Position numbers and translations under genes: made by a program
Part shown: positions 15,880 through 56,076 of the stretch, in pieces
Position numbering within the stretch: position 1 is the first letter of the stretch
Layout: each line of letters begins with the position of its first letter
IMG/VR virus record: IMGVR_UViG_3300050821_004293
Coordinates: 1-60,877 of that record
Strand: one strand, 5' to 3'
DNA: 60,877 nucleotides
Origin: a virus
Notes under the pieces: generated by a model
Told to the model about the DNA's origin: nothing
What the model saw: only the letters and a program-made list of their open reading frames with translations
Database searches by the model: none

Positions 15880-17466
15880 TCAGAGGTCAAGGCTGCCGCG
15901 AGCCAAGCCGGTCTTGGCCTCGGTGGTCTCCGTCACGGCCGTCGCCGGCCGGGCACGTCCTTCCGCCCACTTGCGCAGGCCGCCGATTTTCTCGGCCGAG
16001 GTCTTGCTGAGCGGGACTACGGTCGTCGCCGCCGCGAGCAAATCCTCCGTGGTGATCTCGCGCTCGCCATCCGCGAAGGCGGTGAAGAGCGCGTCGGGCA
16101 CGATCGCTGCGATCTCGGCCCCGGTGAAGCCGGCGCAGACGGTCGCCACCTTGCGGTGGAGGATCGTCTCGACGCCGCGTCTGTGAGCCTTGAGCGTCGC
16201 CTGGAGGATCGCTGCGCGCTCATCCTCCGTGGGGAGGTCGACCCACCACACTTCGTCGAAGCGGCCTTTGCGAAGCAGCTCCGGTGGCAGGCTCGATACA
16301 TCGTTCGCTGTCGCGATCACGAAGGCCTCGCCCTGACGCTCCTGCATCCAGGAGAGGATGCCGCCAAGAGCGTCGGATGAGACGCCACCATCGGCTGAGC
16401 CGCTGGTCGCGCCCTGGAGGGCCTTCTCGACCTCGTCGATCCAGACGACGCAGCGACCAATCGCCTCGATCACCCGGAAGGCCTTGCGGAGATTGCCCTC
16501 GCTCTCGCCGACGAATTTCGACTTGAGCGCGCCGAGGTCGAGCCGCAACAGGGGCACGCCCCAGGCCGTAGCAATGGCCTTGGCGGTCATGGACTTGCCG
16601 CAGCCAGGGACGCCCACGAGAAGGGCGCCCTTGGGCGCAGGAAGGCCGTAGGCGCGGGCCTTGGGGCTGTAGGCGAGGCGCCGGGAGGCGAGCCACGCCT
16701 TGAGGTTGTCCAGGCCGCCGACGCTGTCGAGCCCGCCAGGGAGCGGATCGTGCCATTCGAGCACGCGCTCGCGGGCGATCACGCGGCGCTTCTCTTTCGC
16801 CACGGCGACCGGGTCGATGCGCCTGAACTGCACAAGGCTCTTGGCGTAGCAGGCAGCCGCCTCCTCGCCGCTCAGACCGACCGCCGCATCGATCGCGGAA
16901 TCACGGGCGCCATTGGGCGCTGCGGTCGCTTGCAGCTCCTCCGGCAGTCCGTTGATGGCGGCGTCGAGGATCGAGGCGATCTCCTCGCGATCCGGGAGAG
17001 GCCACTCGATCACAGTCGCATGAGCCGACAGCTCCTGCGGGACATCGCCAGACGGCGAGATCACGATCACGGCCTGGGCGCGTTCCCGCTGCACGCTGGG
17101 GAGCAACCGGGCGAGGTTGCGCAGCTGGCGCAAGGTGGTGATGCCGCCAGGCCCGGACAGCCATGCCGGCAGGTCACGCATGACCCACACGCAGCGGTCG
17201 CCGTTGTCCTTGGCGCGATCGGCGATGAGGTTGAGGGTGTCGGCAGGATCGGCCGAGCCGCCGACCGTCGAGCGCGCGCCGCCAAGCTCGGTGACGCCCT
17301 GCGCCACATCCCAGAAGCGCGCGATGTAGCCGGCCGCTCCCGCCGCCTCGAAGAGATAGCGCTCGGCCCTCGCCTCCTCGCGCGTCACGATCCAGAGCAG
17401 CGGGTTGCGGGCTCTGAGCAGCGCCGCGACATCCGCCGCGACGATCTGGCTTCTACTTTTCGTCAT
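15880..17466 (-). CDS. Ycf46-like AAA+ ATPase, 528 aa
   Basis: The N-terminal region ([20 protein letters not shown]) matches the Ycf46 family, which has a degenerate first ATPase-like half. The C-terminal AAA+ module has Walker A GVPGCGKS (285-292), Walker [11 protein letters not shown] (Asp344/Glu345), a sensor-1-like IATAND, and an arginine finger in RKGRFDE. The lid has the [14 protein letters not shown] pattern of FtsH/spastin-type ATPases. In plastids and cyanobacteria Ycf46 is poorly characterised and implicated in photosynthesis regulation. Its role in a phage is unknown; remodelling of a host or replication complex is plausible. Confidence 0.85.
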
Positions 17467-17808: not shown

Positions 17809-17898
17809 TCGGCAAGAACTGTTGAAAACGCCGCGTAAGCCCTTGAAGCCGCACGGAAGGCCGCTACGGTGTCGGCTTTCCAGGTTCGGAGGCAGGAA

Positions 17899-18402
17899 AT
17901 GGCGGCAACATGGTGGTGCGCTGTCTATACCGATGCGCAGAAAGAGGATCAGGCAAGGGAGGGCCTGGTCGGGCTCGCCTACAATGTGTTCCTGCCGGTC
18001 GAGCGCTATTTCAGCCGGCGCCTCAAGGAAGTCCGCGAGCGTCCGCTCTTCTCGCGCTACCTCTTCGTCGGTCTGGAGGAAGGCCAGGCGTTCGGGCCTA
18101 TCAAGGCAACCGAGGGCGTGCGCCAGCTCCTGACCTACGCGGACGGCGCCGGAGGCCGCAAGCCGCTCGTGGTCAAGACCAAGGTGATCGAGGAGCTGCA
18201 ACGCGCCGAATCGAATGGCGTCTTCGACAACGTGCCGGATCGGCTCAAGGCCGGTGACGAGGTCGCGGTAGACGGGCCGATGTCCTACCTGATCGGCAAG
18301 ATCAAAGGCTCCAGCAAGCGCGACCGCATGAAGGTCCTGTATTCGGTCATGGGGCGACAGATCGAGGCTGACGTGCCACTTTCAAGTATCAAGAGAATAT
18401 GA
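17899..18402 (+). CDS. NusG/RfaH-like transcription elongation factor, 167 aa
   Basis: The start at 17899 (MAATWWCAVYTDAQKEDQAR) follows GGAGGCAGG. Residues 1-105 match the NusG N-terminal domain, which binds RNA polymerase: WWCAVYT, the long-range FLPVERYFS, and the hallmark PLFSRYLFVGLEEGQ. After a linker, residues 120-167 form a KOW domain (LKAGDEVAVDGPMSYLIGKI). Host NusG is essential and highly conserved; divergent paralogues (RfaH, LoaP, UpxY) are operon-specific antiterminators. It lies alone between two operons with a GAAATTTC element upstream. A role as a phage antiterminator acting on late or accessory operons is a reasonable inference. Confidence 0.85.
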   Translation: MAATWWCAVYTDAQKEDQAREGLVGLAYNVFLPVERYFSRRLKEVRERPLFSRYLFVGLEEGQAFGPIKATEGVRQLLTYADGAGGRKPLVVKTKVIEELQRAESNGVFDNVPDRLKAGDEVAVDGPMSYLIGKIKGSSKRDRMKVLYSVMGRQIEADVPLSSIKRI

Positions 18403-18946: not shown

Positions 18947-19543
18947 ATGACCGTAGGGACGCAGTCCGTGGGCCGCCCCACCTTCGCCGACGATCTGAGG
19001 GCGTTCATCACGCTTCTCGACAGGTGTCATCCCCTCGCCGATCGGCTCGAAGAAGCGATCAGGGTTCTTGGCCGCGCCGTCTATGAGGGGCGACCGATTC
19101 TCATCTGCGGCAATGGCGGGTCAGCGTCGGAAGCAGAGCACATGACGGCCGAGCTGGTGGGGCGATTCCTGATCAAACGCGAGCCAATCAACGCGATCTG
19201 CCTCAATAGCAATAGCGCGATGATGACGGCCTGGGCGAACGATGTCGCCTACAAGACTATTTTCGAGCGCCAGGTGCAGGCACACGGTTCACCTGGCGCC
19301 GCGCTCGTTTGCTTCTCGACCAGCGGCGACTCAATCAACGTCGTCAAGGCAGCGCGGATGGCGCACATTCACGGAATGCCGGTGATCTCGCTCACAGGCG
19401 AAGGCGGCGGCAGACTTGCAAACGAGACGGATGTGCTTCTCTCTGTCCCGTCACGCTCGACGCCGATGATCCAGCAAGTCCACCAGCTGCTCATGCATCA
19501 CATCTGCGGCGCGCTCGAAGCTTCCTTAAGCGAGGTGATATAG
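18947..19543 (+). CDS. gmhA: Sedoheptulose-7-phosphate isomerase GmhA
   Basis: A SIS-domain phosphosugar isomerase of normal length (198 aa). It has ILICGNGGSASEAEHMTAEL at about 51-70 and FSTSGDSINVV at 123-133 for phosphate binding. The C-terminal helix IQQVHQLLMHHICGALE supplies the catalytic His (about residue 179). GmhA converts sedoheptulose-7-phosphate to D-glycero-D-manno-heptose-7-phosphate, the first step of ADP-heptose synthesis. It converges on, and overlaps by 46 bases, the 3' end of hldD. The next pathway enzymes (HldE, HldD) are encoded beside it. Confidence 0.93.
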   Translation: MTVGTQSVGRPTFADDLRAFITLLDRCHPLADRLEEAIRVLGRAVYEGRPILICGNGGSASEAEHMTAELVGRFLIKREPINAICLNSNSAMMTAWANDVAYKTIFERQVQAHGSPGAALVCFSTSGDSINVVKAARMAHIHGMPVISLTGEGGGRLANETDVLLSVPSRSTPMIQQVHQLLMHHICGALEASLSEVI

Positions 19544-20469
19544 GCCGATACGCCGGCCCGCACGTCTCGTAAATACCGGTGATACCCGGCCAGCCAAAGC
19601 TTCGTGATGTCAGCCCGCGTGTAGTGCTGATATCGACCGCGTAGCTCCTCCGGCATATCGACCATCTCGACGCAGTCGCTCCAGGCTCTCTCGTCGGACG
19701 GGATGATGGCCGAGATGACTTTCCCAAAGCTCGTCGCCCTGCCGCTGCCGACGTTGTAGATGCCGCTCACCGGCCTCGCCTGCATCAGCCAGAGCATCAC
19801 GTCGACGGCGTCGTCGACATGGACCCAGTCGCGCGTGCTATACCTGGCATTGCCGAAGAGCTTGATCTTGCCGCCCGAGCGGAACGCGTCGACCGACTTG
19901 GTGATGAAGCTCTGCATCTTGCCCTTGTGCTGCTCGCCTGGGCCGTAGACGTTGAAGAACTTCAAGCCATACCAGTGCGACGGCACATCGCTGTCATGTG
20001 CTAATGCCTCGATCGCCACATCTGCGTTGTGCTTCGATCCGGCATATGGGTTCAGCGGCCGGAGATCATTGAGCGGTGTCGATTCGGAGAAGCCGTGCTC
20101 TCCGTCCCCGTAGGTTGAGGCCGAGGAGGCATAGACGATCGGCACATCGTGCATCCCGCACCAGCGCCAGAGCTTGATGGTGAAGTCGGTGTTCTGCCAG
20201 TAGAGCTTATTGACGTCGGTGCAGGTCGTGTCGGTGATTGCACCGAGATGGTAGACGGCGGTGATCTCGGAGGCGCGCCCATCAAGCCACGGTAAGACAT
20301 CGAGCCACGACAGAAGATGATGCGCATAGCTCTTGAGCGCATTGCATCTGCCCCACATATCGCGCGGCGCCATATCTTCGACGATGGCGATCTCGTCACC
20401 AGACAGCCGCGCGAGCGCCTTCACGAGATTCGAGCCGATGAAGCCGGCGCCTCCTGTCACGATGATCAT
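19498..20469 (-). CDS. hldD: ADP-L-glycero-D-manno-heptose-6-epimerase HldD
   Basis: 323 aa short-chain dehydrogenase/epimerase. NAD(P)-binding motif TGGAGFIGSN at residues 5-14; active-site Tyr142 and Lys146 in NPYAGSK. HldD-specific signatures: YHLGAITDTTCTD and FFNVYGPGEQHKGKMQS. It epimerises ADP-D-glycero-D-manno-heptose to the L,D form, the donor for LPS inner-core heptosyltransferases. ATGA overlap with hldE shows a two-gene leftward operon. Ends converge with gmhA. Confidence 0.94.
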   Translation of the reverse strand: MIIVTGGAGFIGSNLVKALARLSGDEIAIVEDMAPRDMWGRCNALKSYAHHLLSWLDVLPWLDGRASEITAVYHLGAITDTTCTDVNKLYWQNTDFTIKLWRWCGMHDVPIVYASSASTYGDGEHGFSESTPLNDLRPLNPYAGSKHNADVAIEALAHDSDVPSHWYGLKFFNVYGPGEQHKGKMQSFITKSVDAFRSGGKIKLFGNARYSTRDWVHVDDAVDVMLWLMQARPVSGIYNVGSGRATSFGKVISAIIPSDERAWSDCVEMVDMPEELRGRYQHYTRADITKLWLAGYHRYLRDVRAGVSAYITSLKEASSAPQM

Positions 20470-21851
20470 GCCTTGGTCCTTTCGATGATGGCGCTCGACG
20501 AGACGCCTTTGACGCTTTCCACGATGAGAACCTTGCCGCCGTAGTTCGACACGAACGGCGCGCCCACGATCCGCTCATAGTCGTAGTCCGCTCCCTTCGA
20601 GAGCACGTCCGGCCGCAAGTCCATGATGAGCGGCATCGGACCCTTGTCGAAGACCACTACGAGGTCGACAGCATTGAGCGCGGTGAGCATCTTCGCCCGC
20701 GTCTCGACCCCGTTCACCGGGCGACCATCGCCCTTCAACTCCCGCACAGACTGATCAGAGTTGAGACCGACGATGAGCCGGTCGCAGTGCTTCCTTGTCT
20801 CTTCGAGCAGATGCACGTGGCCGTGGTGCAGGATGTCGAAGCAGCCGTTGGTGAAGCCGATGCGCTCGCCCTTCGCGCGCCAGCGGGCGACACGATGGGC
20901 AGCCTCGCCAACGCTGACCAGGTTCACGCCGTCGCCAAGCACATCATGCATCTCGGCCGGCGTGACGGTCGCTGTGCCGCGCTTGCCGACCACGATCCCC
21001 GCCGCGACATTTGCGATCTCGGCAGCTTCTGACGGGTCGCAGCCGGCAGCGATGGCAGAGGCGAAGACGGCGATCACCGTGTCGCCAGCGCCGGAGACGT
21101 CGAACACCTCTCGTGCGTGAGAACGAATGTGGTAATTGGCGCTGCCGAATCGAGCGACAGTCATGCCGTGCTCGGCTCGCGTGAGGAGAACATTGGCGTC
21201 GGTCAAGTTGAAGATAATCTGAGCGGCTTGGGCGGCTGCCTCATCATCATCAGCATCGACGAGGGTTGCCTCTAAGGATTCCTTACGGTTCGGCGTGATC
21301 CAATCCGCGCCCTGGTAGAAGCTGAGGTGTGAACGCTTCGGGTCGACGAAGACGAGCTGCCCCGGCCTCTTCGCTTTGACGATCGCCTTGAACGTGTTCC
21401 TGGTCACGACGCCCTTGCCGTAATCCGACACGATGACCGCATCGACGTGCGGCATCTCCGCACCGATTACCTCTTGAAGCACAGTCTCGGTGTGCTGATC
21501 ATAGGGTTCGTCGTTCTCTAGGTCCGATCGGAACACTTGCTGGCCGCCCACCATGAAACGTGTCTTGGCGGTGCGGTGTCGGTTGCTCCTGACGACGCGC
21601 TCTATCACGGCAGGGTCGAGGGGAATGCCCTCCAGGTTCGTCACTCCGCAGAGCGTGACCTCGGCTCCGATCGCCGCGACATTGTTCGCCACATTCGCGG
21701 CCCCGCCTCCGCAGAATCTCTGGCTCTCGAAGACGAAGACCGGCACCGGAGCCTCAGGCGATAAGCGCTCGATCCGTCCTGTCACGTAGTGGTCGATCAT
21801 GATGTCGCCGACCACGAGGATGCGGGCCTTGGTGAAATCTGGGAGCTGCAT
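20466..21851 (-). CDS. hldE: Bifunctional heptose-7-phosphate kinase / heptose-1-phosphate adenylyltransferase HldE
   Basis: 461 aa, the usual two-domain length. Residues 1-310 are a PfkB-type kinase with CGGGAANVANNVAAIGA (47-63) and the signature DVSGAGDT (251-258, catalytic Asp257). Residues 330-461 are a cytidylyltransferase-like domain with FTNGCFDILHHGHVHLLE (HxGH at 342-345). It makes heptose-1,7-bisphosphate, then activates heptose-1-phosphate with ATP. The intervening phosphatase GmhB is not encoded in the window and would have to come from the host. The start has AGGGG upstream, 32 bases from a divergent gene with a GAAATTTC element. Confidence 0.95.
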   Translation of the reverse strand: MQLPDFTKARILVVGDIMIDHYVTGRIERLSPEAPVPVFVFESQRFCGGGAANVANNVAAIGAEVTLCGVTNLEGIPLDPAVIERVVRSNRHRTAKTRFMVGGQQVFRSDLENDEPYDQHTETVLQEVIGAEMPHVDAVIVSDYGKGVVTRNTFKAIVKAKRPGQLVFVDPKRSHLSFYQGADWITPNRKESLEATLVDADDDEAAAQAAQIIFNLTDANVLLTRAEHGMTVARFGSANYHIRSHAREVFDVSGAGDTVIAVFASAIAAGCDPSEAAEIANVAAGIVVGKRGTATVTPAEMHDVLGDGVNLVSVGEAAHRVARWRAKGERIGFTNGCFDILHHGHVHLLEETRKHCDRLIVGLNSDQSVRELKGDGRPVNGVETRAKMLTALNAVDLVVVFDKGPMPLIMDLRPDVLSKGADYDYERIVGAPFVSNYGGKVLIVESVKGVSSSAIIERTKA

Positions 21852-27571: not shown

Positions 27572-28144
27572 ATGACAGTTGAAGGATACGGTCCTGACTT
27601 CTTCGAGATGCACGTCCCATGGCGCGCCGAGTATGAGCGGTTCGCCGATTCGATCGCGAAGCATCTTGCCTTCGAGAGCGTCCTCGATCTCGGCTGCGGC
27701 AATGGTTTCCTGATCGAGCATCTGTCGCACGTGCATGGAAAGGCGGCCTGGGGCGTCGATGGCTCTCCGGATGCGGTCAACGCAAACCCACGTGTGGCGA
27801 TCGAGCACTTCGATCTGCGCCGGCCATATATGGGTGGCTCCTTCGGCCTCGTGATCTGCACCGAGGTCGCCGAGCACATCGAGAGGCTTTACGAGAACGT
27901 GCTCGTGCAGAGCATCGCCAGAGCATCAAGCGGGCTCGTCCTCTTCAGCGCGGCGAAGCCTGGTGCTGGCGGATATCTCCACGTCAACGAGCGTCCGCAA
28001 GCTCACTGGGTTCGCAAGTTCCGCAACTGGCGGTTTCAGCTGGACGCCGAGAAGACGGCATCGATCCGGGCCGATCTCGCAGCGAACATCGAAACCTGGT
28101 GGTTTACGCAGAACGTGATTGTCCTCAGAAACGGAAAGGGATGA
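27572..28144 (+). CDS. SAM-dependent methyltransferase, class I, 190 aa
   Basis: Motif I is SVLDLGCGNGFLIEHL (about 36-51), followed by AWGVDGSPDAV (motif II acidic residue) and LVICTEVAEHIE (motif IV). These match small-molecule or sugar/lipid methyltransferases (UbiE/COQ5-like), not DNA enzymes. It sits between portal and head genes, out of place for a structural operon. It may modify a glycan or virion component; see the glycosyltransferase gene at 50336. Confidence 0.85.
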   Translation: MTVEGYGPDFFEMHVPWRAEYERFADSIAKHLAFESVLDLGCGNGFLIEHLSHVHGKAAWGVDGSPDAVNANPRVAIEHFDLRRPYMGGSFGLVICTEVAEHIERLYENVLVQSIARASSGLVLFSAAKPGAGGYLHVNERPQAHWVRKFRNWRFQLDAEKTASIRADLAANIETWWFTQNVIVLRNGKG

Positions 28145-32875: not shown

Positions 32876-33838
32876 ATGCGCGTTGCTTTGATGGACTCGC
32901 AACAGGCCCTCGGGTTCCTGATCGAGCAGACGACTTACATCGAGGCCGAGGTCTACCGGACTCAATACCCGGAAATCAATTACCAGGAGCTTGTGCCGAT
33001 CGACACGTCGGCCGGCGAATGGGCGAAGTCGGTCACCTACTTCTCGCTCGATAAGGTGGGCGAGGCCGATTGGTTCAACGGCATGGCGACCGATATGCGC
33101 ATCGCCGACATCAATCGGAACAAGTTCGAGCAGGGCATCGAGATGGCCGGCATCGGCTATCGCTACACCCTGGAGGAACTGGGCCAGGCGATGCAGGTTC
33201 CTGGCTTGAACCTATCGGCCGAGCGCGCCGACTCCGCACGCTTCGCCTACGAGAGCTTCATGCAGCGCCACGCCTATGTGGGCTCAACCTCGAAGGGCGT
33301 CACGGGCCTCGTCAACTCACCGCTCGTCACGGTGATCGAGGCGCAGGCGGATGGCACGGGCGGTTCGTCCGACTGGTCGACGAAGACGGCCGACCAGATG
33401 ATCCGCGACGTGAACCTAGGCCTGACTGGCGTCTATGAAGGATCGCTGATGGTCGAGATCGCCGACACGGTGCTCCTGCCGATCGGCGCGATGGAACTCC
33501 TTGCTAACACGCGCGTGCCGAACACCTATGGCAACGCGCTCAACTACCTGAAGGAGTTCAACACCTACACGCACCAGACGGGCCAGCCGCTGACCATCCG
33601 TGGCATCCTGAACCTGGATAGCGCCGGCACAGGCGGCACCGGGCGCATGATCTGCTACCGGCGTGACCCTCGCGTGCTGAAGCTGCACATGCCTATGGTC
33701 CACCGCTTCCTGCCAGTCTGGCAGACCGGTCCGATCACCTTCGACATCCCTGGCATCTTCCGCGTGGGCTCCGTCGAAATCCGCCGCCCTGGCGCAATGC
33801 GCTACGTCGACGGCATCTCTGGACCCGGGTCGCCCTGA
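32876..33838 (+). CDS. Major capsid protein (DUF2184-like), 320 aa
   Basis: Contains the family pattern WAKSVTYFSLDKVGEADWFN, ADINRNKFEQGIEMAGIGYR, and near the C-terminus the interface motif IPGIFRVGSVEIRRPGAMRY. Length and position fit a HK97-fold capsid protein. AAAGAAAGGA precedes the ATG. Confidence 0.88.
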   Translation: MRVALMDSQQALGFLIEQTTYIEAEVYRTQYPEINYQELVPIDTSAGEWAKSVTYFSLDKVGEADWFNGMATDMRIADINRNKFEQGIEMAGIGYRYTLEELGQAMQVPGLNLSAERADSARFAYESFMQRHAYVGSTSKGVTGLVNSPLVTVIEAQADGTGGSSDWSTKTADQMIRDVNLGLTGVYEGSLMVEIADTVLLPIGAMELLANTRVPNTYGNALNYLKEFNTYTHQTGQPLTIRGILNLDSAGTGGTGRMICYRRDPRVLKLHMPMVHRFLPVWQTGPITFDIPGIFRVGSVEIRRPGAMRYVDGISGPGSP

Positions 33839-33902: not shown

Positions 33903-34190
33903 ATGGCGTTCTACGACATCTTCAATCCCGGCCCCAATCCGCGCGTGCTCTACGACGGGATCAAGCGCGGCTCCCGCTCGGAAGAGCTTGCCCAGGTCGA
34001 GAAGACGATCCGCATTGCTCCCGGCGAGACGCGCAAGGGCATCGAGCTTGCCGACCACGTGGTGAAGCGCCTCGCCTTTCTCCGCAAGGCTGATCCGCAA
34101 CACTCGCTGAAGCTCGTCGAGGCTGGCAAGGCCGAGCTGGAGCTTGGAGACGAGCCGCCTGCCAAGATCGCGCAGGCTGCGCGGAAGTGA
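33903..34190 (+). CDS. Small head-associated protein sharing a domain with the 50336 glycosyltransferase, 95 aa
   Basis: Starts MAFYDIFNPGPNPRVLYDGI and contains IRIAPGETRKGIELADHVVK. The first 60 residues align with the N-terminus of the 1108-aa protein at 50336 (IHNPLRASRVIHDGL... IGPGQTVENVQLADAVV). Shared positions include NP, RV, DG, PG-T, LAD-VV. Lies immediately after the capsid gene, so probably a virion component, function unknown. Confidence 0.7.
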   Translation: MAFYDIFNPGPNPRVLYDGIKRGSRSEELAQVEKTIRIAPGETRKGIELADHVVKRLAFLRKADPQHSLKLVEAGKAELELGDEPPAKIAQAARK

Positions 34191-36283: not shown

Positions 36284-36681
36284 TGCCTGTCGGCCAGATC
36301 AATTATGCGCGGTCCCAGGCAGTTGCCGACCGCATGATCCGCAAGGGCGGCATGCAGGCGGTGCTGCGGCGCCCCGGCATGGCGGATCGGCCCTGCTCCG
36401 TGCTTCAGATGGAATTCAGCCCGATGGAGCGCATGGGCAAGCCGATCCTGGCCATCCAGCTGGTCAACCCGACCGACCGCAAGTTCATCGTGTCGACGAT
36501 CGTTCCAGGAGCTGGGGGAACGCTAATCGCACCAGATGCTGAGCAAGACGCCCTGGTGACCTTCGTGCAGCCTCCTGGGTCGCCTCCTGTCCAGCATGAG
36601 GTGCTGCGCATCGTGGCGCCTGTAGGCAAGAGCGCGCTCGCCGATGTCGTGGTCTTCTGGCGTCTGACGGTGCGGCGATGA
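36283..36681 (+). CDS. Head-tail joining (stopper-like) protein, 132 aa
   Basis: Beta-rich sequence with LVTFVQPPGSPPVQHEVLRI near the C-terminus, a size and pattern seen in stopper/neck proteins. It lies between connector and tail terminator genes. The assignment rests mainly on order. Confidence 0.6.
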   Translation: MPVGQINYARSQAVADRMIRKGGMQAVLRRPGMADRPCSVLQMEFSPMERMGKPILAIQLVNPTDRKFIVSTIVPGAGGTLIAPDAEQDALVTFVQPPGSPPVQHEVLRIVAPVGKSALADVVVFWRLTVRR

Positions 36682-37193
36682 GCAAAGAAAAGTGGAAAAA
36701 AATTGCAAGTTTTCCCGGATACGCTGTCAGCTCTCACGGGAGAGTGAGCGGAAGGCAGAAGGCACTCCTAACGCCGTTCATCGGCGGCAATGGCCATCCG
36801 TCCGTCTATCTATATCGAGACGGCGGGGCCGTCGTGCGAAGAGAATCCGTTCATGTGCTTGTCCTGGAGACATTCTTCGGACCAAGGCCCAAGCCAGGGA
36901 TGCAGGGGCGGCATCTTAACGGCAAAAAAACGGTCAACCGGCTCAGCAATCTCAAGTGGGGAACGCCGCTTGAGAACGTGCATGATGCCATGAAACATGG
37001 CGTCCACGTCCGCCCCAAGTTTGGCGAAAAGCACATGGGGGCAACCATAACGGACGCTGTTGCTAAGGAAATCAAAAGGCGGCTCGCCGAAGGTTTGACG
37101 ACGCGACAGATTGTCGATGCGACTGGCGTGAAGCGGCACACCGTCAACAATATCAAAGCCGGGCGTTCTTTCAGATTGGTGACGGCATCGTGA
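36678..37193 (+). CDS. NUMOD4-HNH homing endonuclease, 171 aa
   Basis: N-terminal NUMOD4 motif (WKKIASFPGYAVSSHGRVSG), HNH core (ESVHVLVLETFFGPRPK, GRHLNGKKTVNRLSNLKWGT), then a helix-turn-helix (LTTRQIVDATGVKRHTVNNI) for DNA binding. It overlaps both neighbours (ATGA and GTGA), so it is neatly threaded into the operon. It is more AT-rich than its flanks, a sign of transfer. Confidence 0.92.
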   Translation: MSKEKWKKIASFPGYAVSSHGRVSGRQKALLTPFIGGNGHPSVYLYRDGGAVVRRESVHVLVLETFFGPRPKPGMQGRHLNGKKTVNRLSNLKWGTPLENVHDAMKHGVHVRPKFGEKHMGATITDAVAKEIKRRLAEGLTTRQIVDATGVKRHTVNNIKAGRSFRLVTAS

Positions 37194-43498: not shown

Positions 43499-45991
43499 GT
43501 GAGCACTTTTCCGTTCTATTTCAGTTGGGTCGCACCCGGCACGCCGTTCAATCCGGCGATCCACAATGTGCAGGATGAGGAAATCCTGTCGTTCAAGATC
43601 GAGCACTCGGAAGGCGAAATCCCGTCGCTGACGATCGAGATACGCAATCCGCGCATCGGGCTTCTCGCGCCGGGCCGGCTTGTCTGGGCCTGGTTCTCCT
43701 GGGATTCGCAGGCGAGCGACGGGATCGTGGCATTGTTCTTCGGGCGCCTGGTGAGCGTGCCTACCGATCTTCTCGGAGAGGCAGTGACGCTCCGCTTCAG
43801 CGCTCAGCCGCTGAACTTCCTGGTGCAGAAGCAGAGCCTCGCTCCGAGCTTGCAGGTTCGGCCCTATTGGGACCCGGTCTTCATCGACATCGCCCATCGC
43901 CTCGATCCGGACTCAGTGCTCGAAGGCTACTCGGCCTTCTGGCATGTGGACCGTGTCTTCAACTTGGTGTCGATCTCCGATGTGCTCGTCGGCGAGGATG
44001 GGCTTATCTCGATCACGAGCAGCGAGGGCTTCTACGATTCTGTCAATTTGTCGGTCGACAAGCCGCCGCTGCGTTCGGTCTATGTGAAGGCGACCGTCAA
44101 ATGGACGCAGCAAGCGGTCGGCACTGTCGACATGCTGCCGCAGCACATCCAGTCATATTCGGGAGACGGGCTGATCAGCGGGTGGCCGAAGCCTCTCGCC
44201 TCCCTCGGCGCCGGCTGGACCGTCGCTTACTCGTCTGCCTATGACGTCTACAATGTCGCGAAGACGCAGACGATCACCATCACCACGAGCTGGAAGAACC
44301 AGGAGAAATCGCACAACTACGGCGACCCGATGAGCTTCAACCAATCGTGGACGCGGCCGATCTTCCGCTGCCCCTATCTGCGCCAGGTGGTCACCTCCTA
44401 CAGCAAGATCGCGATCATCGACCAAGACCCAGATGGCTTTAATGACCCGACTGCGACGACGAGTTACACTGATGTCTGGGTCCCGCTCTGGACTGTCTCG
44501 ACGACCTTGGTGCTGCGCTACGAGGCGATGCGCCAGAGAACCGAGGACGTGCGCTTCACGCTTGCCGCCGATCTGCAACCCGTGTTCACCGATCCGGGCG
44601 GACAGGCAGCTAATTTCGCGCAGGATTCCGAGCTGATCGATGTGCAGGGGAGCGTCGGGCTCGAAGGCCCCTATGGCACCGATCGCGGCACATGGGCGCC
44701 CGACACGCAATACTACCTCTACGACTACTTCATCGTCACCGTCGCAGGCATCCAGCACGCCTATTATGTTCTTCGCGACCATGTAAGCGAACCGGCCTTC
44801 AACGAGCAGTCGACAGCCGGCGTCTGGCAGCCTTTCACCTATTACGGGCAGGGCGAGAACGTCTACGTCGGGGGCGAGGTCTTTGCCGTTCTCGTCAGCC
44901 ACCAGAGCAAGGCGGGGTTCAATGCGGCGGCCCTCGATGGCAACGGTAACCTGATCTACCAGTTCCGGCCAAACCCGTTCTCAGGCCAGCGCCTCTATTC
45001 GCCGATCCCTAACTATCGCGGTGCATGGCTGCCCTCGACCGTCTATGTGGGCAATGACATCGTGATTGCGCCGGGAGGCACCTATTACAAGGTCATCATC
45101 GGTCACACGTCGGGGTCGACATTCGATCCCTATGGCACCGACCCGACCGGACAGCTGCTCTTCGCGCTCCTGCTCAACCCCGCGCCGATTGGTGACTTGT
45201 CGAGGCGCTCCTATCTCCCGACCGATCGTGGCCTGTGGAGCCTCGAATACCTGATCATGCGCGCGCGGGCCGCGCTCGTCTCGCGCTCTCGCGCGGTCAA
45301 GGTGACTTTCGAGTGCCCCTTCCATCTCGCGGTCTATCTGTCGTGCCGCAAGAATGCGCAGCTCTTTGATTCGCGTCTTCCGGGAGGCCAGGCTACAGGC
45401 AAGGTCACCTCCTACAAGCTCATCGGGGTTGGCGTCGACAGCGCTCCATACGCGAGCATCACGATCTCCTGTGCTGTCGGCAATGGAAATGCCGTTCACG
45501 AGTTCGACGGCAACCCAACCTACGCGGCGCCAGGATACGCGGTTATTGGCTACCAGTATTACACCGACCGTGAGACCTTGATCGGTGCTGGAGACGTCAA
45601 CTACTCCTATCCGGCCGACAGCCCGATTGACGACGGTCTCGTCTTTCCGCTCGATAAGACGCAGTCGGTGATCAGCGAGACGATCACCACCAATCCGATC
45701 TCCCAGGAACAGGCGATCATCACTGCCTATACGGGATCGCAACAGCAACAGCTGTTCCTGGCGCAGATCGAGGCCGGCATCAGCGAGGCGCAGGCGCAGA
45801 TCAACCTCATCCAGTCGCAGCACATTTCACAGGCGCAGCTCTATGAGCAGGCGCTAGCAGCAAATCCATCCTGGTATGAATTGGTGCTCAACCCGGTTGT
45901 CAACGGCCCCTTCTCCACTGAATATGACATCACCGTGAGCGAACTCATGGTCCCGCAACAGATCAATCTCGCCGCCCCATCATCGCCGTGA
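43499..45991 (+). CDS. Baseplate hub / tail-associated protein with carbohydrate-binding modules, 830 aa
   Basis: GTG start. The N-terminal 200 residues (EEILSFKIEHSEGEIPSLTI... IALFFGRLVSVPTDLLGE pattern) match gp27-like hubs. The middle contains tandem RGTWAPDTQYYLYDYFIV and RGAWLPSTVYVGNDIVI units, the W...Y..GD.V pattern of CBM5/12 chitin-binding-like modules. C-terminal Gln-rich helix (AQAQINLIQSQHISQAQ). The hub probably contacts the host surface sugar or peptidoglycan. Confidence 0.8.
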   Translation: MSTFPFYFSWVAPGTPFNPAIHNVQDEEILSFKIEHSEGEIPSLTIEIRNPRIGLLAPGRLVWAWFSWDSQASDGIVALFFGRLVSVPTDLLGEAVTLRFSAQPLNFLVQKQSLAPSLQVRPYWDPVFIDIAHRLDPDSVLEGYSAFWHVDRVFNLVSISDVLVGEDGLISITSSEGFYDSVNLSVDKPPLRSVYVKATVKWTQQAVGTVDMLPQHIQSYSGDGLISGWPKPLASLGAGWTVAYSSAYDVYNVAKTQTITITTSWKNQEKSHNYGDPMSFNQSWTRPIFRCPYLRQVVTSYSKIAIIDQDPDGFNDPTATTSYTDVWVPLWTVSTTLVLRYEAMRQRTEDVRFTLAADLQPVFTDPGGQAANFAQDSELIDVQGSVGLEGPYGTDRGTWAPDTQYYLYDYFIVTVAGIQHAYYVLRDHVSEPAFNEQSTAGVWQPFTYYGQGENVYVGGEVFAVLVSHQSKAGFNAAALDGNGNLIYQFRPNPFSGQRLYSPIPNYRGAWLPSTVYVGNDIVIAPGGTYYKVIIGHTSGSTFDPYGTDPTGQLLFALLLNPAPIGDLSRRSYLPTDRGLWSLEYLIMRARAALVSRSRAVKVTFECPFHLAVYLSCRKNAQLFDSRLPGGQATGKVTSYKLIGVGVDSAPYASITISCAVGNGNAVHEFDGNPTYAAPGYAVIGYQYYTDRETLIGAGDVNYSYPADSPIDDGLVFPLDKTQSVISETITTNPISQEQAIITAYTGSQQQQLFLAQIEAGISEAQAQINLIQSQHISQAQLYEQALAANPSWYELVLNPVVNGPFSTEYDITVSELMVPQQINLAAPSSP

Positions 45992-48049: not shown

Positions 48050-49381
48050 ATGGCAGTCACCTACAGGACAACCGGACCATGGGGCGCTGGCTCAGCGTCT
48101 GACCTTCCGGCTGCGACGATCGATGAGAACTTCTGGACGTTGGTCCAGGAGATCATCACGCTCACGAGCGAGATCAGCGGCTCGGTCGTCTCGATCGCGA
48201 GCGCCACCGTCGTTGGAAACCAGCTCACCTTCACGCTGACCAACAGCGCGGTTCTCGGTCCTTACACGCTTCCCGTCGCGCAGTGGAACTGGCGCGGCCC
48301 TTGGCAGCCTCTTACCACCTACGCGATCCAGGACGTGATCACCGACAATGCCTCGGTCTATCTCGTCATCTGGAACCATACGTCGGCGGCAACCTTCAAC
48401 CCCGGCGCTAATGACGGCCTAGGCCACAACTATTATGCCCTCCTCTTGACGATTCCCGGCAGCGCACTCCCGGCGCACGGTTCGACGAACCAGGTGCTCG
48501 CCAAGATCAACGGCACCGACTTCAACACCTACTGGGCGACGCTCACGCTCGAATATCTGGAGGACGTTCAGCATTCGCCAGGCCCGGCGAATGGCGATCT
48601 GATCCAATATGAGTCGGGTCTATGGCGCTTCGTCGAGGCATCTTCGCTTGCCCTCTTGTGGTCGCAGCTGACCGGGACGATACCCTACGATTCGCTACGC
48701 AACCCGACCGTGACTGTGCTCGGAACATCCGGCTCTGTGGCGCTCGATCCGTCGCTCGGCGACGTCTTCACCGTGATCCCGACCGGCAACATCACGCTCG
48801 ATGCGCTCTTCGCGCCGGCTGATGCCAAGATCGTGGTCATCATCACGACGAGCGGCAGCGCGGATCACACCATCACGCTCGGGACGCTATTCGCGACCGC
48901 AGACGTGATCCACACGGGCACGACTAGCGGCGTGGACATCACGCTGACTTTCACAGGAGACGGCAGCAATCTCTATAGCACCGGGCGATCTTCAGTCGTT
49001 GCGCAGCCGGCCGACTACCAGGCTGACAACCCGCGCCTGACCTTGACCACTGACAGCGTGTGGGGAGCGGCGGTTCCGGTCACGCTGACGGATGCCGGCA
49101 CGATCTCGATGGACTTCTCGACCTTCATCAACGCCTTCGTGACGCTAGGCGGAAACAGGACGCTTGGCACTCCCGCGAATGTGAAGCCGGGGCAGTCGGG
49201 GCTGATCGAGATCGACCAGGATTCAACGGGCACGCGCACCCTCACGCTTGGCTCTGGATATCTCACCGCTGGGGGCGCAGGCATCACGCTCTCGACGGCG
49301 CCCAATGCCAGGGACGCAATCGCCTATACGGTCCTGCATGATGGCGACGTTCTCTTGAGTCTCCAGGCGGCGCTCGCGTGA
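48050..49381 (+). CDS. Tail fibre protein, 443 aa
   Basis: N-terminus MAVTYRTTGPWGAGSASDLP, then a helix; the middle contains RGPWQPLTTYAIQDVI, a W...Y..D.V sugar-binding module. The rest is beta-rich Thr/Ser/Gly (ITLTFTGDGSNLYS, RTLTLGSGYLTAGG), fibre-like. Its stop overlaps the next gene (GTGA). Confidence 0.75.
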   Translation: MAVTYRTTGPWGAGSASDLPAATIDENFWTLVQEIITLTSEISGSVVSIASATVVGNQLTFTLTNSAVLGPYTLPVAQWNWRGPWQPLTTYAIQDVITDNASVYLVIWNHTSAATFNPGANDGLGHNYYALLLTIPGSALPAHGSTNQVLAKINGTDFNTYWATLTLEYLEDVQHSPGPANGDLIQYESGLWRFVEASSLALLWSQLTGTIPYDSLRNPTVTVLGTSGSVALDPSLGDVFTVIPTGNITLDALFAPADAKIVVIITTSGSADHTITLGTLFATADVIHTGTTSGVDITLTFTGDGSNLYSTGRSSVVAQPADYQADNPRLTLTTDSVWGAAVPVTLTDAGTISMDFSTFINAFVTLGGNRTLGTPANVKPGQSGLIEIDQDSTGTRTLTLGSGYLTAGGAGITLSTAPNARDAIAYTVLHDGDVLLSLQAALA

Positions 49382-50331
49382 TCCCTGGGAACATCAATCT
49401 TTCGGTGCTCGCCTCTGGCGGGGGCGGCCCTCCTCCCCCGCCACCAGGGCAGAGCTACAGCAATTACGAAGGCTCCGGCAGCCGCAGGGCGCCGGTCCTG
49501 GCAACCACTACCGCAACGTCGGCGGCCGGCGACGTCACCTATCTGCTCGACGGCACGGGCGGCAATACCTGGCAGTGGAACAACGGCCAGAGCGGCCTCA
49601 CGGTCACTTTCGATCTCGAAGCGAGCACCGAGGACACGACCCATCGCGTGATCGATGAGGCCACGTGGCTCCAGTCGACGACGGATGTGCATGGCACATG
49701 GCAGTGGGCTGGATCGAACGACAACGTCACCTACACCAATATCGGCTCGACCTTCACGCTCGGTGGCTCGACGAGCCAGGTCCTGACGACGCTGCACGGC
49801 AACGCCACCGCCTATCGCTATTACCAGCTGCAACAGACGGGAGGCACGACGTCGGGGACGCCGTTCCTGCAAAGCCTCACCTTCAGGATCGATGCGGCGC
49901 TCACGCTCGGCTATTTCGGCACCTATGGCGTCGGCAACCGCACCTCGGCGATCACGGTCACCTCGACCGCCGTAGCAAGCGGTTCGCCTAGCCAGCTTCT
50001 CGACGGTAGCTTCGGCCAAAGTTACTACTGGGTCGGCGGCCAGACAGGCCTTGTCGTGCATTTCGACTTTGGCACTGGCGTCATCGTCAATGAGGCCTTC
50101 TGGTATCAGAGCGCGGCCATCGCTGAAGGGACCTGGCAGTGGCAGGGCTCTAACGACGATTCGACCTGGACTAACATCGGATCGACCTTCACGCTCGGGG
50201 GCGCGGTCATGCAGCGCCACACGCAGCTGAATGGCAATACCACGTCATATCGTTACTATCGGATGGAGCAGACGGGCGGGACGACGTCAAACGCCTCCTT
50301 CCTCCTGGAGATCGAATTCAGCACGGGATGA
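49378..50331 (+). CDS. Tail protein with two discoidin (F5/8 C)-like domains, 317 aa
   Basis: After a poly-Gly/Pro linker, two homologous domains of about 140 residues. Both contain GTWQW-GSND---T-TNIGSTF and TSYRYYRMEQTGGTTS-like strings, the galactose-binding discoidin pattern. Duplication is visible even in the DNA. Probably receptor binding via sugars. Confidence 0.78.
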   Translation: MIPGNINLSVLASGGGGPPPPPPGQSYSNYEGSGSRRAPVLATTTATSAAGDVTYLLDGTGGNTWQWNNGQSGLTVTFDLEASTEDTTHRVIDEATWLQSTTDVHGTWQWAGSNDNVTYTNIGSTFTLGGSTSQVLTTLHGNATAYRYYQLQQTGGTTSGTPFLQSLTFRIDAALTLGYFGTYGVGNRTSAITVTSTAVASGSPSQLLDGSFGQSYYWVGGQTGLVVHFDFGTGVIVNEAFWYQSAAIAEGTWQWQGSNDDSTWTNIGSTFTLGGAVMQRHTQLNGNTTSYRYYRMEQTGGTTSNASFLLEIEFSTG

Positions 50332-50335
50332 GCTT

Positions 50336-53300
50336 ATGTTCTCGATCCACAATCCGCTGCGCGCCTCGCGGGTGATCCATGACGGACTTCGCCCTGGCAA
50401 GAGAGGCGAGATCGCGATCGGCCCCGGACAGACGGTCGAGAACGTGCAGCTGGCGGACGCGGTCGTGAGGAACCTGGAGAACCGGCGCAACGATCTTCGA
50501 CTGACGAGGCTCGGACCTCCTGGTCCACCAGTCTCCTTCATTGCCGCGCAAAGGGAGCCAGAGCGACGCGTGCCGAAACCCGCGATCGTCATCACCGGCA
50601 TGTGGGGCATCGGCGACAATCTTCACCAGCGGGCCGTGATGCGCGAGCTGATGAAGACGCATGATGTGTGGCTCGAAACCTGCCACTATCTCGTCTACCA
50701 CGATCTCGTTGCGCAGGGCCTGAAGCTAATCCGCAAGCACACGTCGCTTCGAGCCCAGGCGAAGACGATTGCGCGCGAGACTTCGATGTTCCCCTACGCT
50801 AACCCTCCTCCGATGAATGCCAGGCGCGGCATTAAGCTCTGGTATCACCGCAACGAGATCGAGCGCGACGGCAGCATCATCGAGGCCATGATGGCGTCTG
50901 GTGGCGTCGGCGGCGTGAGGCCGGATTTCAGCATGCCGGTGCCAGATGAATGGCGCAATGCGGCGCGCAAGCTGATCTCGCAATGGGACATAAAGGGCAA
51001 GCCGCTCCTCGTCTATCGGCCAATCGTGTTGAGGAAGGAATGGAACGGGAGCGCCCGCAATCCCGATCCGGAAGCCTATGCGACGCTGTTCCAATCCATC
51101 CGCGATCGGTTCTTCGTGGTGAGCCTTGCCGACCTGGAGCAGGGCAAGGAGTGGATCGTCGGAGAGGAACAGGACGCCGACGTGAAGCTCCACCGTGGCG
51201 AGCTGGATTTTCAGACCATGGCCGGGCTCTTCGCCGAGGCCGATATGATGTTCGGCAATGCCGGCTTCGGCCCGGTCCTGGCGCAGGCAGTCGGCACGCC
51301 GCTCATCGTGGTCTATGGGGGCCGCGAGAGCTACCGCACCACCGAGCGCGGGGGCGCCCATCTCGCCCCCACTCTCGGCATTGATCCGGACAAGCCATGT
51401 GATCGGCACAACGACTGCCGGCGCGATGTCACGGTCAGGACCAAGAATGGCGGTATCTGCCCCTGTGACAAGCACATCTCGATCGAGCCGGCGCTGGCGA
51501 GGATCGCCGAATTCGTGGACAAGCATCTGCCGAAGCCAGCGCGCACGCTGATCTTCGCCACCACCTATGTCGACTCGGATGATCGGGTGAAGCTTACGGA
51601 CCATTGGCTCACGCTGATGCGCGCGCTCAACCCTGATTGCGATCTGCTCATCGTTGACTCGGACTCGCCGAGGAAGGCCTTCATCGACGCCAGGCACGGA
51701 GGCTTCACGCCCTACCAGTCCGGCGCCAAGGCGAAACAGGCGTTCTACAGCTTCCCGGACAATGTCGGGCATCTGTCGCGCAAGGGGCGCGATGGCTGGG
51801 GACGGGCTTTCAGCTTCGGGCTGCAAGCGGCGATCGACTGCGGCTATGACTACGTTGCGCACATCGAAGGCGACTCACTCTTCAGGCTTCCGGTGTCGCC
51901 GATCATCGACCAAATGGAGCGTGACAAGGCAGACGCGCTCTCGGTCGCGGTGACCGGCACAAATCGCCAGTGGTTCGGCTGGGCCGAGACGGGCCTGATG
52001 TTCTTCCGCACGAAGTATCTCGCCGAGAGCAATTTCGTCCGTAATTACGACTGGCAGAACCGCAAGGTTAGCCCCACGCCTGAGATCGTCGTGTCGAAGC
52101 TCCTCGGTCCACGCCTTCGCCTCATGCCGTGGAAGGCCTGGAGAGGCGACAAGAACCAGATCACGAGCGGCAATGTTGTCTCGCTCAATCTTGATTGGGT
52201 CACGCATTGCCACAGCGACATGGGCGTCTATGACCACTTTCTCGAAGCTGCTATAGGAAAGTCGGCCTGCTCCAACGGGGCGATTGACATCGCTGGCAAA
52301 CTGAAGGAACGGGCTGAGCCTGAGTTGCCGCCAGCTTCTCAGGCTCCTTTGACATCTGAGCTTACCGGGGCAGAGCCTGCGCTCAAGTGCCAGCCGGGGA
52401 GCGAGGTGAAAGCCCTCGCGCCCATCAAGCTCAACTTCGGATGCGGGACGAACAAGCTCGCCGGCTGGCAGAACTTCGACGCCGAGATCGACATCGGCAA
52501 GCCGCTTCCATTCCCAGACAATCACGCAGACTTCATCTTCGCTGAGCACGTGGTCGAGCACATCGACTATTACGCGGCGCTGGCCTTTTTCCAGGAATGC
52601 CTGCGTGTGCTGAAGCCGCAAGGCGTGGTCCGGATCACGGTGCCTTCGGTCGAGCAGATCATGAAATGCGGCGACGAGGGCTACTTCAAGTTCACGACCA
52701 AGTTCCACGACAAGGGCGCGACCGTGCGCGGCGCCATGCACAACATCATTCACTGCCACGGGCACCGCACGGCCTGGACAGCCTCGCTGATGGATTCGTC
52801 GCTGTTCTTCGTGGGCTTCGAGGGGCTGGAGCAATGCAAGCCGCGCGAGTCCTCGCGCTCCGATCTGCGCGGCGTCGAGGGGCACGGCGCTGTGATCGGC
52901 GACCGCTGGAATGAAATCGAGTCGCTCGTCTTCGAAGGCACAAAGCCCGGCGAGAGGCTGATCGCCATGGACGGTCCCGCGCGCACCAGGGTCGCTGTGG
53001 TGGTCGGCGGCGCCGAGTGTGTCTTCGAGGACATCGCCAAGGCGCGCGAGCTGTGCGCCGAGACCGGGTGCGAGCCGGTGTTCTTCGTCATCAACGACAT
53101 GATCTCGCTGTTTGAGGGCGGCATGATTGCCGTATCGCTACATCCGGACAAGCTCGCGACGTGGCTTGGTGACCGAGCGGCGAAGCGCTATCCCGCGCCG
53201 CTCCAGGTCTGGGCGCACCGCCCTCACAAGTCGGCGACGCACCACACTCCGGACTGGGGCGGATCCTCGGGACTGTTCTCGGCCAAGCTCGCGATCGAGC

Positions 53301-53662
53301 AGGGGTTCAAGCAAGTCCTCCTGTGCGGCGTGCCGATGACTCTGGACGGCAAGCATGTCGTTCGGAAGCAGAACTGGAGCGCCTTCCACGCCTTCCGGGG
53401 CGCTTGGGATCGCCATCGCCGCGAGATCGTTCCCTACGTGAGGAGCTTTTCCGGCTGGACGGCCGATGTGCTTGGCAAGCCCGATCACGGCTTCCTGGGC
53501 GGCTGGGCGCCGGCTCCAGCCATCACCATAGCGGCCCCACCAGTCGACCGGGCTCCTGAGCCACGGGAAAGGCTGGACGAGCCTCCCGCGCCGGTTCCGG
53601 TTCCTATGCAGCTCATGCCAAGGCCCATGCGACCTTGGGCGATCCGCAGCCGCCACCGCTGA
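50336..53662 (+). CDS. Multi-domain glycosyltransferase/methyltransferase protein, 1108 aa
   Basis: Domains in order. 1-65: small domain shared with the head-associated protein at 33903. About 82-395: GT-B glycosyltransferase of GT9 (heptosyltransferase) type, with VITGMWGIGDNLHQ and MFGNAGFGPVLAQAVGTPLI (305-324) resembling the GNDSGxxHLAAAxGTP motif. About 402-640: GT-A-like domain with HIEGDSLF (Glu511/Asp513, a DxD-like metal site). About 697-800: SAM methyltransferase (LNFGCGTNKLAGW, EHVVEHIDY). About 885-1045: DUF115/MptE-like domain (VVVGGAECVFEDIAKA, AIEQGFKQVLLCGVP), as in Maf flagellin glycosyltransferases. Pro-rich tail. Located between fibre and lysin genes. Confidence 0.8.
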   Translation: MFSIHNPLRASRVIHDGLRPGKRGEIAIGPGQTVENVQLADAVVRNLENRRNDLRLTRLGPPGPPVSFIAAQREPERRVPKPAIVITGMWGIGDNLHQRAVMRELMKTHDVWLETCHYLVYHDLVAQGLKLIRKHTSLRAQAKTIARETSMFPYANPPPMNARRGIKLWYHRNEIERDGSIIEAMMASGGVGGVRPDFSMPVPDEWRNAARKLISQWDIKGKPLLVYRPIVLRKEWNGSARNPDPEAYATLFQSIRDRFFVVSLADLEQGKEWIVGEEQDADVKLHRGELDFQTMAGLFAEADMMFGNAGFGPVLAQAVGTPLIVVYGGRESYRTTERGGAHLAPTLGIDPDKPCDRHNDCRRDVTVRTKNGGICPCDKHISIEPALARIAEFVDKHLPKPARTLIFATTYVDSDDRVKLTDHWLTLMRALNPDCDLLIVDSDSPRKAFIDARHGGFTPYQSGAKAKQAFYSFPDNVGHLSRKGRDGWGRAFSFGLQAAIDCGYDYVAHIEGDSLFRLPVSPIIDQMERDKADALSVAVTGTNRQWFGWAETGLMFFRTKYLAESNFVRNYDWQNRKVSPTPEIVVSKLLGPRLRLMPWKAWRGDKNQITSGNVVSLNLDWVTHCHSDMGVYDHFLEAAIGKSACSNGAIDIAGKLKERAEPELPPASQAPLTSELTGAEPALKCQPGSEVKALAPIKLNFGCGTNKLAGWQNFDAEIDIGKPLPFPDNHADFIFAEHVVEHIDYYAALAFFQECLRVLKPQGVVRITVPSVEQIMKCGDEGYFKFTTKFHDKGATVRGAMHNIIHCHGHRTAWTASLMDSSLFFVGFEGLEQCKPRESSRSDLRGVEGHGAVIGDRWNEIESLVFEGTKPGERLIAMDGPARTRVAVVVGGAECVFEDIAKARELCAETGCEPVFFVINDMISLFEGGMIAVSLHPDKLATWLGDRAAKRYPAPLQVWAHRPHKSATHHTPDWGGSSGLFSAKLAIEQGFKQVLLCGVPMTLDGKHVVRKQNWSAFHAFRGAWDRHRREIVPYVRSFSGWTADVLGKPDHGFLGGWAPAPAITIAAPPVDRAPEPRERLDEPPAPVPVPMQLMPRPMRPWAIRSRHR

Positions 53663-55290: not shown

Positions 55291-56076
55291 ATGCGCTACT
55301 ATGGCCGCGAGCCGGATCGCTTCGATCAACGCGATCAACACTTCATGGCCGCGCACCCAGCACTGAAGACCGCGCCGCTCCTCCCAAGCGTCGATCTACG
55401 CGCGCAGCTGCCGCCGTCCTATGACCAGGGCCAGCTTGGAAGCTGCGGCGCGAATTCGATGAAGCGGCTCATGGCCTTTCTCTACCCCGGCTTCGACGGC
55501 TCGCGGCTGGAGATGTATTGGAACGTGCGGGAGCGCGAGGGCACAGTCGGCCAGGATTCAGGCGTCGAGACGCGCGACCTGTTCATTGTGGCGCAACAGA
55601 TCGGCATGGCGCCGGAGAATGACTATCCCTATGACATCGCGACTTTCACCGACAAGCCGAGCGCGCGATGCCAGGCTGACGCCGCCTCCCACCGGATATC
55701 TGCCTACTCACGCCTCTCGACCGCGCATGACGTGCTGGCCTGCCTCTCAGGCGGCATGGTCTGCATCGCCGGATTCGAGGTGCCTCAGCCCTTCGAGGGC
55801 GTGGAGATCGAGAGCACGGGCATCATGACCATGGGGCATACGGCTGGCACGATTGTCGGCGGCCATGACGTGTGCTGCGTGGGCTACAACATGAACTTCA
55901 AGTCCTCGCCGTTCTTCCGCGCATCTGGTGTCGATCCGGCGCTCGTCACCGACCACATGCTGCTCTTCGCGAATTCGTGGGGACCGGACTGGGGAGATGC
56001 GGGGCATTTCTGGGCGCCGCTCATCTGGATGATCGATGTCTCAACGGGCGCCGACATCTGGACAGGAAGGAAGTGA
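55291..56076 (+). CDS. Papain-like cysteine protease (C1A family), 261 aa
   Basis: Catalytic residues in papain order: oxyanion Gln46 and Cys52 in YDQGQLGSCGANS, His192 in VGGHDVCCVGYN, Asn228 in ANSWGPDWGDAGHFW. No signal peptide or long propeptide is visible. GGAGG precedes the ATG. C1A proteases occur sporadically in phages and bacteria. In a lysis/late cluster it could act on host proteins, virion proteins or the cell envelope; which is unknown. Confidence 0.88.
   Translation: MRYYGREPDRFDQRDQHFMAAHPALKTAPLLPSVDLRAQLPPSYDQGQLGSCGANSMKRLMAFLYPGFDGSRLEMYWNVREREGTVGQDSGVETRDLFIVAQQIGMAPENDYPYDIATFTDKPSARCQADAASHRISAYSRLSTAHDVLACLSGGMVCIAGFEVPQPFEGVEIESTGIMTMGHTAGTIVGGHDVCCVGYNMNFKSSPFFRASGVDPALVTDHMLLFANSWGPDWGDAGHFWAPLIWMIDVSTGADIWTGRK

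Follow-up and report, generated by a model that had tools for sequence, protein, structure and literature searches.

A five-module fusion protein encoded between phage tail and lysis genes, a candidate enzyme for glycosylation of the phage's own particle

The 60,877-nt viral stretch analysed here (the window; IMG/VR record IMGVR_UViG_3300050821_004293) contains, between its tail genes and its lysis genes, one gene (50336..53662, + strand) that encodes several glycosyltransferase (GT) modules together with a methyltransferase, which raises the questions of what this protein modifies and whether it uses heptose made with phage-encoded enzymes. The reading frame is open from position 50231 (1,143 aa); within it, the ATG at 50336, located four bases after the stop codon (50329-50331) of the upstream gene, is the likely start, giving a product of 1,108 aa, because it is from this codon onward that the N-termini of 12 relatives can be aligned with that of the fusion protein. 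The same module order is present in relatives at 45-54% identity, and an origin of the fusion by chance or misassembly is thus very unlikely. The original prediction described a four-enzyme protein, and its four module calls (GT-B/GT9-like, GT-A, SAM methyltransferase, and MptE-like) were all confirmed by profile matches, Foldseek, and AlphaFold models, but a fifth part, consisting of the N-terminal ~62 aa, had been overlooked. In the surrounding region, tail-region proteins with CBM_5_12 carbohydrate-binding modules are encoded at 43499-45991 and 48050-49381 (+), and a gene for a papain-family cysteine protease (55291-56076, +; PF00112, E=2e-7) adjoins the lysis genes.

The GT9-like GT-B module occupies residues 83-398 (50582..51529, +), of which residues 84-337 match phrog_6804 (E=3e-34). 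An AlphaFold model of this module, built from an alignment of 42 relatives, had a pLDDT of 93.2 and a pTM of 0.92. In agreement with the predicted heptosyltransferase pattern, the closest solved structures identified by Foldseek were those of WaaF (1psw, 3e-8), a Veillonella GT9 protein (3tov), TibC (4rap/4rb4, TM up to 0.58), and WaaC (2h1h, 2gt1); all top matches were heptosyltransferases or GT9 proteins (E 3e-8 to 1e-5, TM 0.40-0.58). Family matches were weak yet consistent (RfaQ, heptosyltransferase II/III, and TibC/Aah), and WaaF was the sole PDB sequence match of the module profile at E<=1 (0.014). The gathering cut-off of Pfam PF01075 was not reached by the module, with no match for the window as a single sequence and matches in 4 of the 42 relatives (best E 0.0088).

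Strongly conserved segments of the module comprise an N-terminal GxGD, RP.....EW..R, ADL..G.EW, and a cysteine cluster. G12, G14, and D15 of the GxGD are invariant in the 42 relatives, and the aspartate may be the equivalent of the catalytic base of WaaC/TibC, as judged from its position. The ADP-heptose pocket assumed in the original prediction found no support in the WaaF motif NDSGLMH, of which the glycine alone is kept when WaaF is aligned to the profile, most clade members carrying NAGFGP or NAGFAP; because this motif is not conserved, the donor sugar cannot be read from the sequence. A scan with seven homologs detected 206 viral relatives of the module, and in the module tree the heptose-associated members are placed at three positions, with weak support for the deep branches.

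The GT-A module (residues 402-640; 51539..52255, +) contains an invariant aspartate, D115 in domain numbering, in an HIEGDSL stretch. Its model (pLDDT 91.9) matched GT-A enzymes in Foldseek, e.g. UGGT, glycogenin, and TarP, and Glycos_transf_2 was matched by 8 of 40 relatives (best 1e-6). It is followed by a SAM-dependent methyltransferase module (residues 693-875; 52412..52960, +; PF08241, E=3e-8) and by an MptE-like/CST-I-like module (residues 884-1055; 52985..53500, +). The latter matches PF01973 (MptE-like) in 13 of 42 relatives (best 4e-5), with one relative weakly matching CST-I, and is 35% identical to the product of a Paracoccus phage Pkon1 gene that lies after the Pkon1 major capsid gene. 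Neither the C-terminal nor the GT-A profile gave informative matches when searched against PDB sequences, the GT-A matches being short and to designed repeat proteins. A second methyltransferase is encoded between the portal and head genes of the window (27572..28144, +), and its homolog in relative G001 (46%) is located directly after the fusion gene.

The remaining part of the protein is the N-terminal domain (residues 1-62; 50336..50521, +). This domain is a paralog (43% identity, E=8.6e-4) of a 95-aa protein encoded at 33903..34190 (+), directly after the gene for the major capsid protein (32876..33838, +; phrog_264, E=2e-84), the nearest relatives of which are found in an Acinetobacter phage (50%) and then in Rhizobium phages (45%). 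To avoid circularity, a hidden Markov model (HMM) was built solely from 13 fusion N-termini and was searched against 12,286 stop-to-stop frames from the window, 14 related records, and two isolate stretches. Beyond the fusions, it matched one small protein encoded directly after the capsid gene in all 12 clade records with a capsid gene, including the window (E 3e-15 to 3e-4; window, E=8.6e-10), and nothing else in these frames, the next-best frame having an E-value of 2.4. These matches indicate that a paralog of the protein encoded beside the capsid gene forms part of the fusion enzyme. The domain may therefore dock the enzyme on the phage particle, and it points to the virion as the target. 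Searches of isolate phages by tblastn with the N-domain and with the capsid-adjacent protein gave no match. A NUMOD4/HNH homing-endonuclease-like gene (36678-37193, +) is present amid the head-tail genes of the window.

The full fusion belongs to a clade whose members have in common tail genes, the portal protein (51-66%), and the major capsid protein (60-76%); in the clade relatives the fusion still follows the tail genes. Alignments were required to find these relatives, as neither the whole fusion nor the GT-A module, used as a single protein, had a match in viral or genome contigs; with alignments, the GT-A module detected 50 loci and the C-terminal module 80 loci, the comparison genomes being nearly all metagenomic records and many of them incomplete. 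The architectures comprise everything from single modules up to N-GT9-GTA-MT-CT and GT9-GTA-MT, with 22 ORFs each when repeat views of identical contigs are included, and split versions also occur (GT9 | GTA | MT-CT in L220 and L221). In 14 ORFs the GT9-like module was called twice (GT9-GT9), some of these possibly representing one split match, and L213:7919-10705 has the order GT9-GT9-GTA. The GT9-like module of the window is 77% identical to that of relative G089, but the values for the N-domain and the C-terminal module are 32 and 52%, respectively; such unequal identities suggest differing rates or module exchange.

The window also contains three genes for heptose synthesis, about 29-31 kb from the fusion gene: gmhA, encoding sedoheptulose-7-phosphate isomerase (18947..19543, +; TIGR00441, 2e-45, below the curated cut-off; PF13580, above the cut-off), hldD, encoding ADP-heptose 6-epimerase (19498..20469, -; TIGR02197, 287 bits against a curated cut-off of 274.6), and hldE, encoding the bifunctional heptose-7-phosphate kinase/heptose-1-phosphate adenylyltransferase (20466..21851, -; PRK11316, 1e-132). 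HldD alone passes its NCBIfam cut-off, the two hldE domain models giving 306/345 and 179.9/181.5 bits, below the cut-offs. All three genes, as originally called, are genuine by NCBIfam comparison and apparently intact. The further claim of a complete pathway was not sustained: a GmhB-type phosphatase (TIGR01656) was detected in none of 10 records (the window and nine relatives), with all 14 controls positive, and of 34 records searched the window was the only one with gmhA. Just upstream of gmhA, a NusG/RfaH-like protein is encoded (17869-18402, +; PF02357, E=2e-11); in bacteria, factors of the RfaH type regulate long operons, among them those for LPS. Other window genes include those for an AAA ATPase (15880-17466, -), which matches FtsH/PAN and the model of the anti-phage ATPase IteA and has a 63% relative in G090, and for a DnaB helicase (4791-7268, +) with a LAGLIDADG-type stretch at residues 430-479, probably an intein.

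The connection between the fusion and heptose is closer in several relatives. In G090, a single-strand operon runs from the fusion gene (30961-27707) through genes for a methyltransferase, an HldE kinase, and an adenylyltransferase to that for HldD, which ends at 24512. In G089, all that is left of an HldE kinase, directly after the fusion gene, is its first ~60 residues (L322:3165-3383), a remnant that suggests the decay of a one-time heptose operon. The gene directly after the fusion in G093 encodes an HddA kinase (NF049969, 2e-37), from a family unrelated to HldE; it is followed by genes for an SDR epimerase and for a second GT-A protein. In G094 the HldE/HldD set adjoins the terminase gene, the same placement as in the window; a cupin-like gene is present between the HldD and portal genes of G094 (L330:10761-14296). 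Co-occurrence with heptose genes in other phages, which had been proposed as a check of the prediction, was thus found in these four relatives and lends the heptose link independent support, but HldE was detected in just 3 of 13 full-fusion relatives.

In a first co-occurrence test, hldE and gmhA were found in 0 of 50 GT9-bearing records; the absence of a link with heptose that this implied was superseded by the full-fusion relatives found via the GT-A and C-terminal modules. The second test covered records reached by way of the other modules, with the window as a positive control, and detected HldE in three, all of them carriers of the full fusion. Over both tests, the 3 of 13 full-fusion relatives with HldE compare with 0 of 82 records with a partial module set (Fisher p=0.002), and among records of at least 40 kb the corresponding numbers are 3 of 9 and 0 of 39 (p=0.005), although these p-values ignore phylogeny and many of the records are fragments. 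Heptose genes are patchy across the fusion clade and, because of this, the heptose link rests on a minority of the relatives. Patchy presence would be expected if the heptose genes merely supplement the host supply, and the hosts of Mesorhizobium prophages that carry the three-module form (one such prophage being that of M. ciceri WSM4083, L359) encode HldE, which can account for relatives without it.

We propose that the protein is a virion-directed glycosylation enzyme that assembles a glycan on the phage's own particle, with heptose supplied by the phage in this case, and assign this reading a probability of roughly 0.5. Two features of virion-glycosylation cassettes, i.e. several GTs and a methyltransferase encoded together and a location in the virion gene region, are present. 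This phage and some of its relatives probably coat their particles with a methylated, heptose-containing sugar chain, and the fusion probably uses heptose in this phage, the use of ADP-heptose being backed by genomic context. A more specific version, in which such a glycan sits on the capsid, a single enzyme is docked there by a duplicated capsid-associated domain, and heptose is self-supplied, in some relatives from an operon that starts with the enzyme, is put forward more tentatively, at somewhat less than even odds.

The alternative that survives best retains the virion as the target but assumes that the GT9-like module uses another nucleotide sugar and that the heptose genes serve another purpose. 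The divergence of the pocket motif from WaaF is consistent with this, as is the finding that most fusion-bearing relatives and the phages with standalone GT9-like proteins lack heptose genes, and the GT9-like family was found in 0 of 38 other hldE-bearing records. These points are countered by the two non-homologous types of heptose-7-phosphate kinase that, in different relatives, are encoded directly after the fusion, by closest folds that all belong to heptosyltransferases or GT9 enzymes, and by the result that no NTP_transferase-type sugar nucleotidyltransferase was identified in any of 34 records. We regard another donor as possible but unlikely.

Less probable still, and in our judgement distinctly unlikely, is a role of the fusion and the heptose genes in modifying the host surface (LPS or another glycan), e.g. 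for superinfection block. The LPS core typically contains heptose, and changes of host serotype by phage GTs are known in general (PMC12619734), but no segment of the fusion protein is a convincing membrane span (maximum 19-residue hydropathy, 1.67), the gene is located between tail and lysis genes, and the N-domain is paralogous to a capsid-adjacent protein. Glycosylation of phage DNA (hypermodification) or of another intracellular target is very improbable, since, although phage GTs that modify DNA are known (cited in PMC12619734), the fusion gene lies in the virion gene block and carries the capsid-paralog domain, and no base-hypermodification genes were recognised among those genes that were searched.

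Under the proposed virion-directed function, a single soluble polypeptide would work as an assembly line for glycans, its target being a component of the phage particle itself. The N-domain would place the enzyme on the capsid or on a capsid-bound partner, and the GT9-like module would transfer heptose from a nucleotide-activated heptose. In this phage, GmhA, HldE, and HldD of the phage would raise the supply of this donor, and the GmhB step would be left to a host phosphatase. Further sugars may be added by the GT-A and MptE/CST-I-like modules, and the methyltransferase module may cap or tailor the chain, the order and the sugars in this scheme being conjectural. Relatives without heptose genes would use host nucleotide sugars. 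A benefit might lie, for example, in shielding from host surface defence or recognition.

To our knowledge, glycosylation of phage virions is known in few systems. An enzyme fused to a paralog of a capsid-adjacent protein provides a testable targeting mechanism for virion proteins, and the heptose operon beside the fusion suggests that the donor sugar is, in some cases, provided by the phage itself. A heptosylated capsid, if it exists, would be a phage coat of a new type, with a bearing on how phages are recognised and how stable they are.

Compared with known enzymes, the GT9-like module has WaaF and WaaC among its top fold matches but differs from them in lacking NDSGLMH, in falling below the Pfam GT9 cut-off, and in being part of a fusion. 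TibC, which is proven to heptosylate proteins, relies on Asp-110, Thr-226, Lys-230, Arg-286, and Trp-305 and requires both a four-cysteine iron finger and its N-terminal domain for function (PMC4358343). The module shares with TibC/AAH the GT-B fold and a cysteine cluster near the C-terminus, and the acceptors of TibC are proteins, whereas the identity is 11-14%, the cysteine spacing differs, and TibC is a single-enzyme dodecamer. The predicted resemblance to Maf flagellin glycosyltransferases (DUF115/MptE-like) holds at the level of the MptE-like superfamily for the C-terminal module of ~170 aa; the remaining Maf architecture is absent, the rest of the fusion consisting of GT-B, GT-A, and methyltransferase modules. 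Cyanophages such as P-SSM2 likewise carry HldE-like genes.

The original prediction knew of no such combination of a phage fusion with heptose genes, and no report of one was found in the accessible literature, which lacks most subscription papers. The closest counterparts are cassettes of separate genes. Related GT9-like proteins are encoded in or beside the virion-gene blocks of D3, PAJU2, Psp6, Mulvp2, and others, and several D3-like phages have methyltransferase and 'alpha-2,3-sialyltransferase' genes near the GT9-like gene. The D3/PAJU2-type cassette thus has a homologous GT9-like protein (phrog_6804, 30-33% identity), three corresponding kinds of enzymes, and a location in the head-tail block, but its genes are small and separate, and the GT-A module and the N-domain were not found there. 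A fusion of exactly these D3-like genes was considered and rejected, because in BLAST comparisons with 24 phage proteins clear homology was limited to the GT9-like part, the D3-like methyltransferase and sialyltransferase-like genes not being close relatives of the fusion modules.

In cluster O mycobacteriophages, the capsid and tail tube are modified by three tandem GTs with an O-methyltransferase, according to PMC11600133, which cites Freeman et al. 2023. In both cases, three GTs and a methyltransferase are encoded together by the phage, the action on the virion being shown there and proposed here. The two systems are likened by gene content and differ in that the enzymes described here form one polypeptide with a capsid-gene-paralog domain and that some members carry heptose supply genes. 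The kind of cassette is known; what is new here is that the enzymes form one polypeptide, that a domain paralogous to the capsid-adjacent protein is attached, and that heptose genes are joined to the fusion in relatives.
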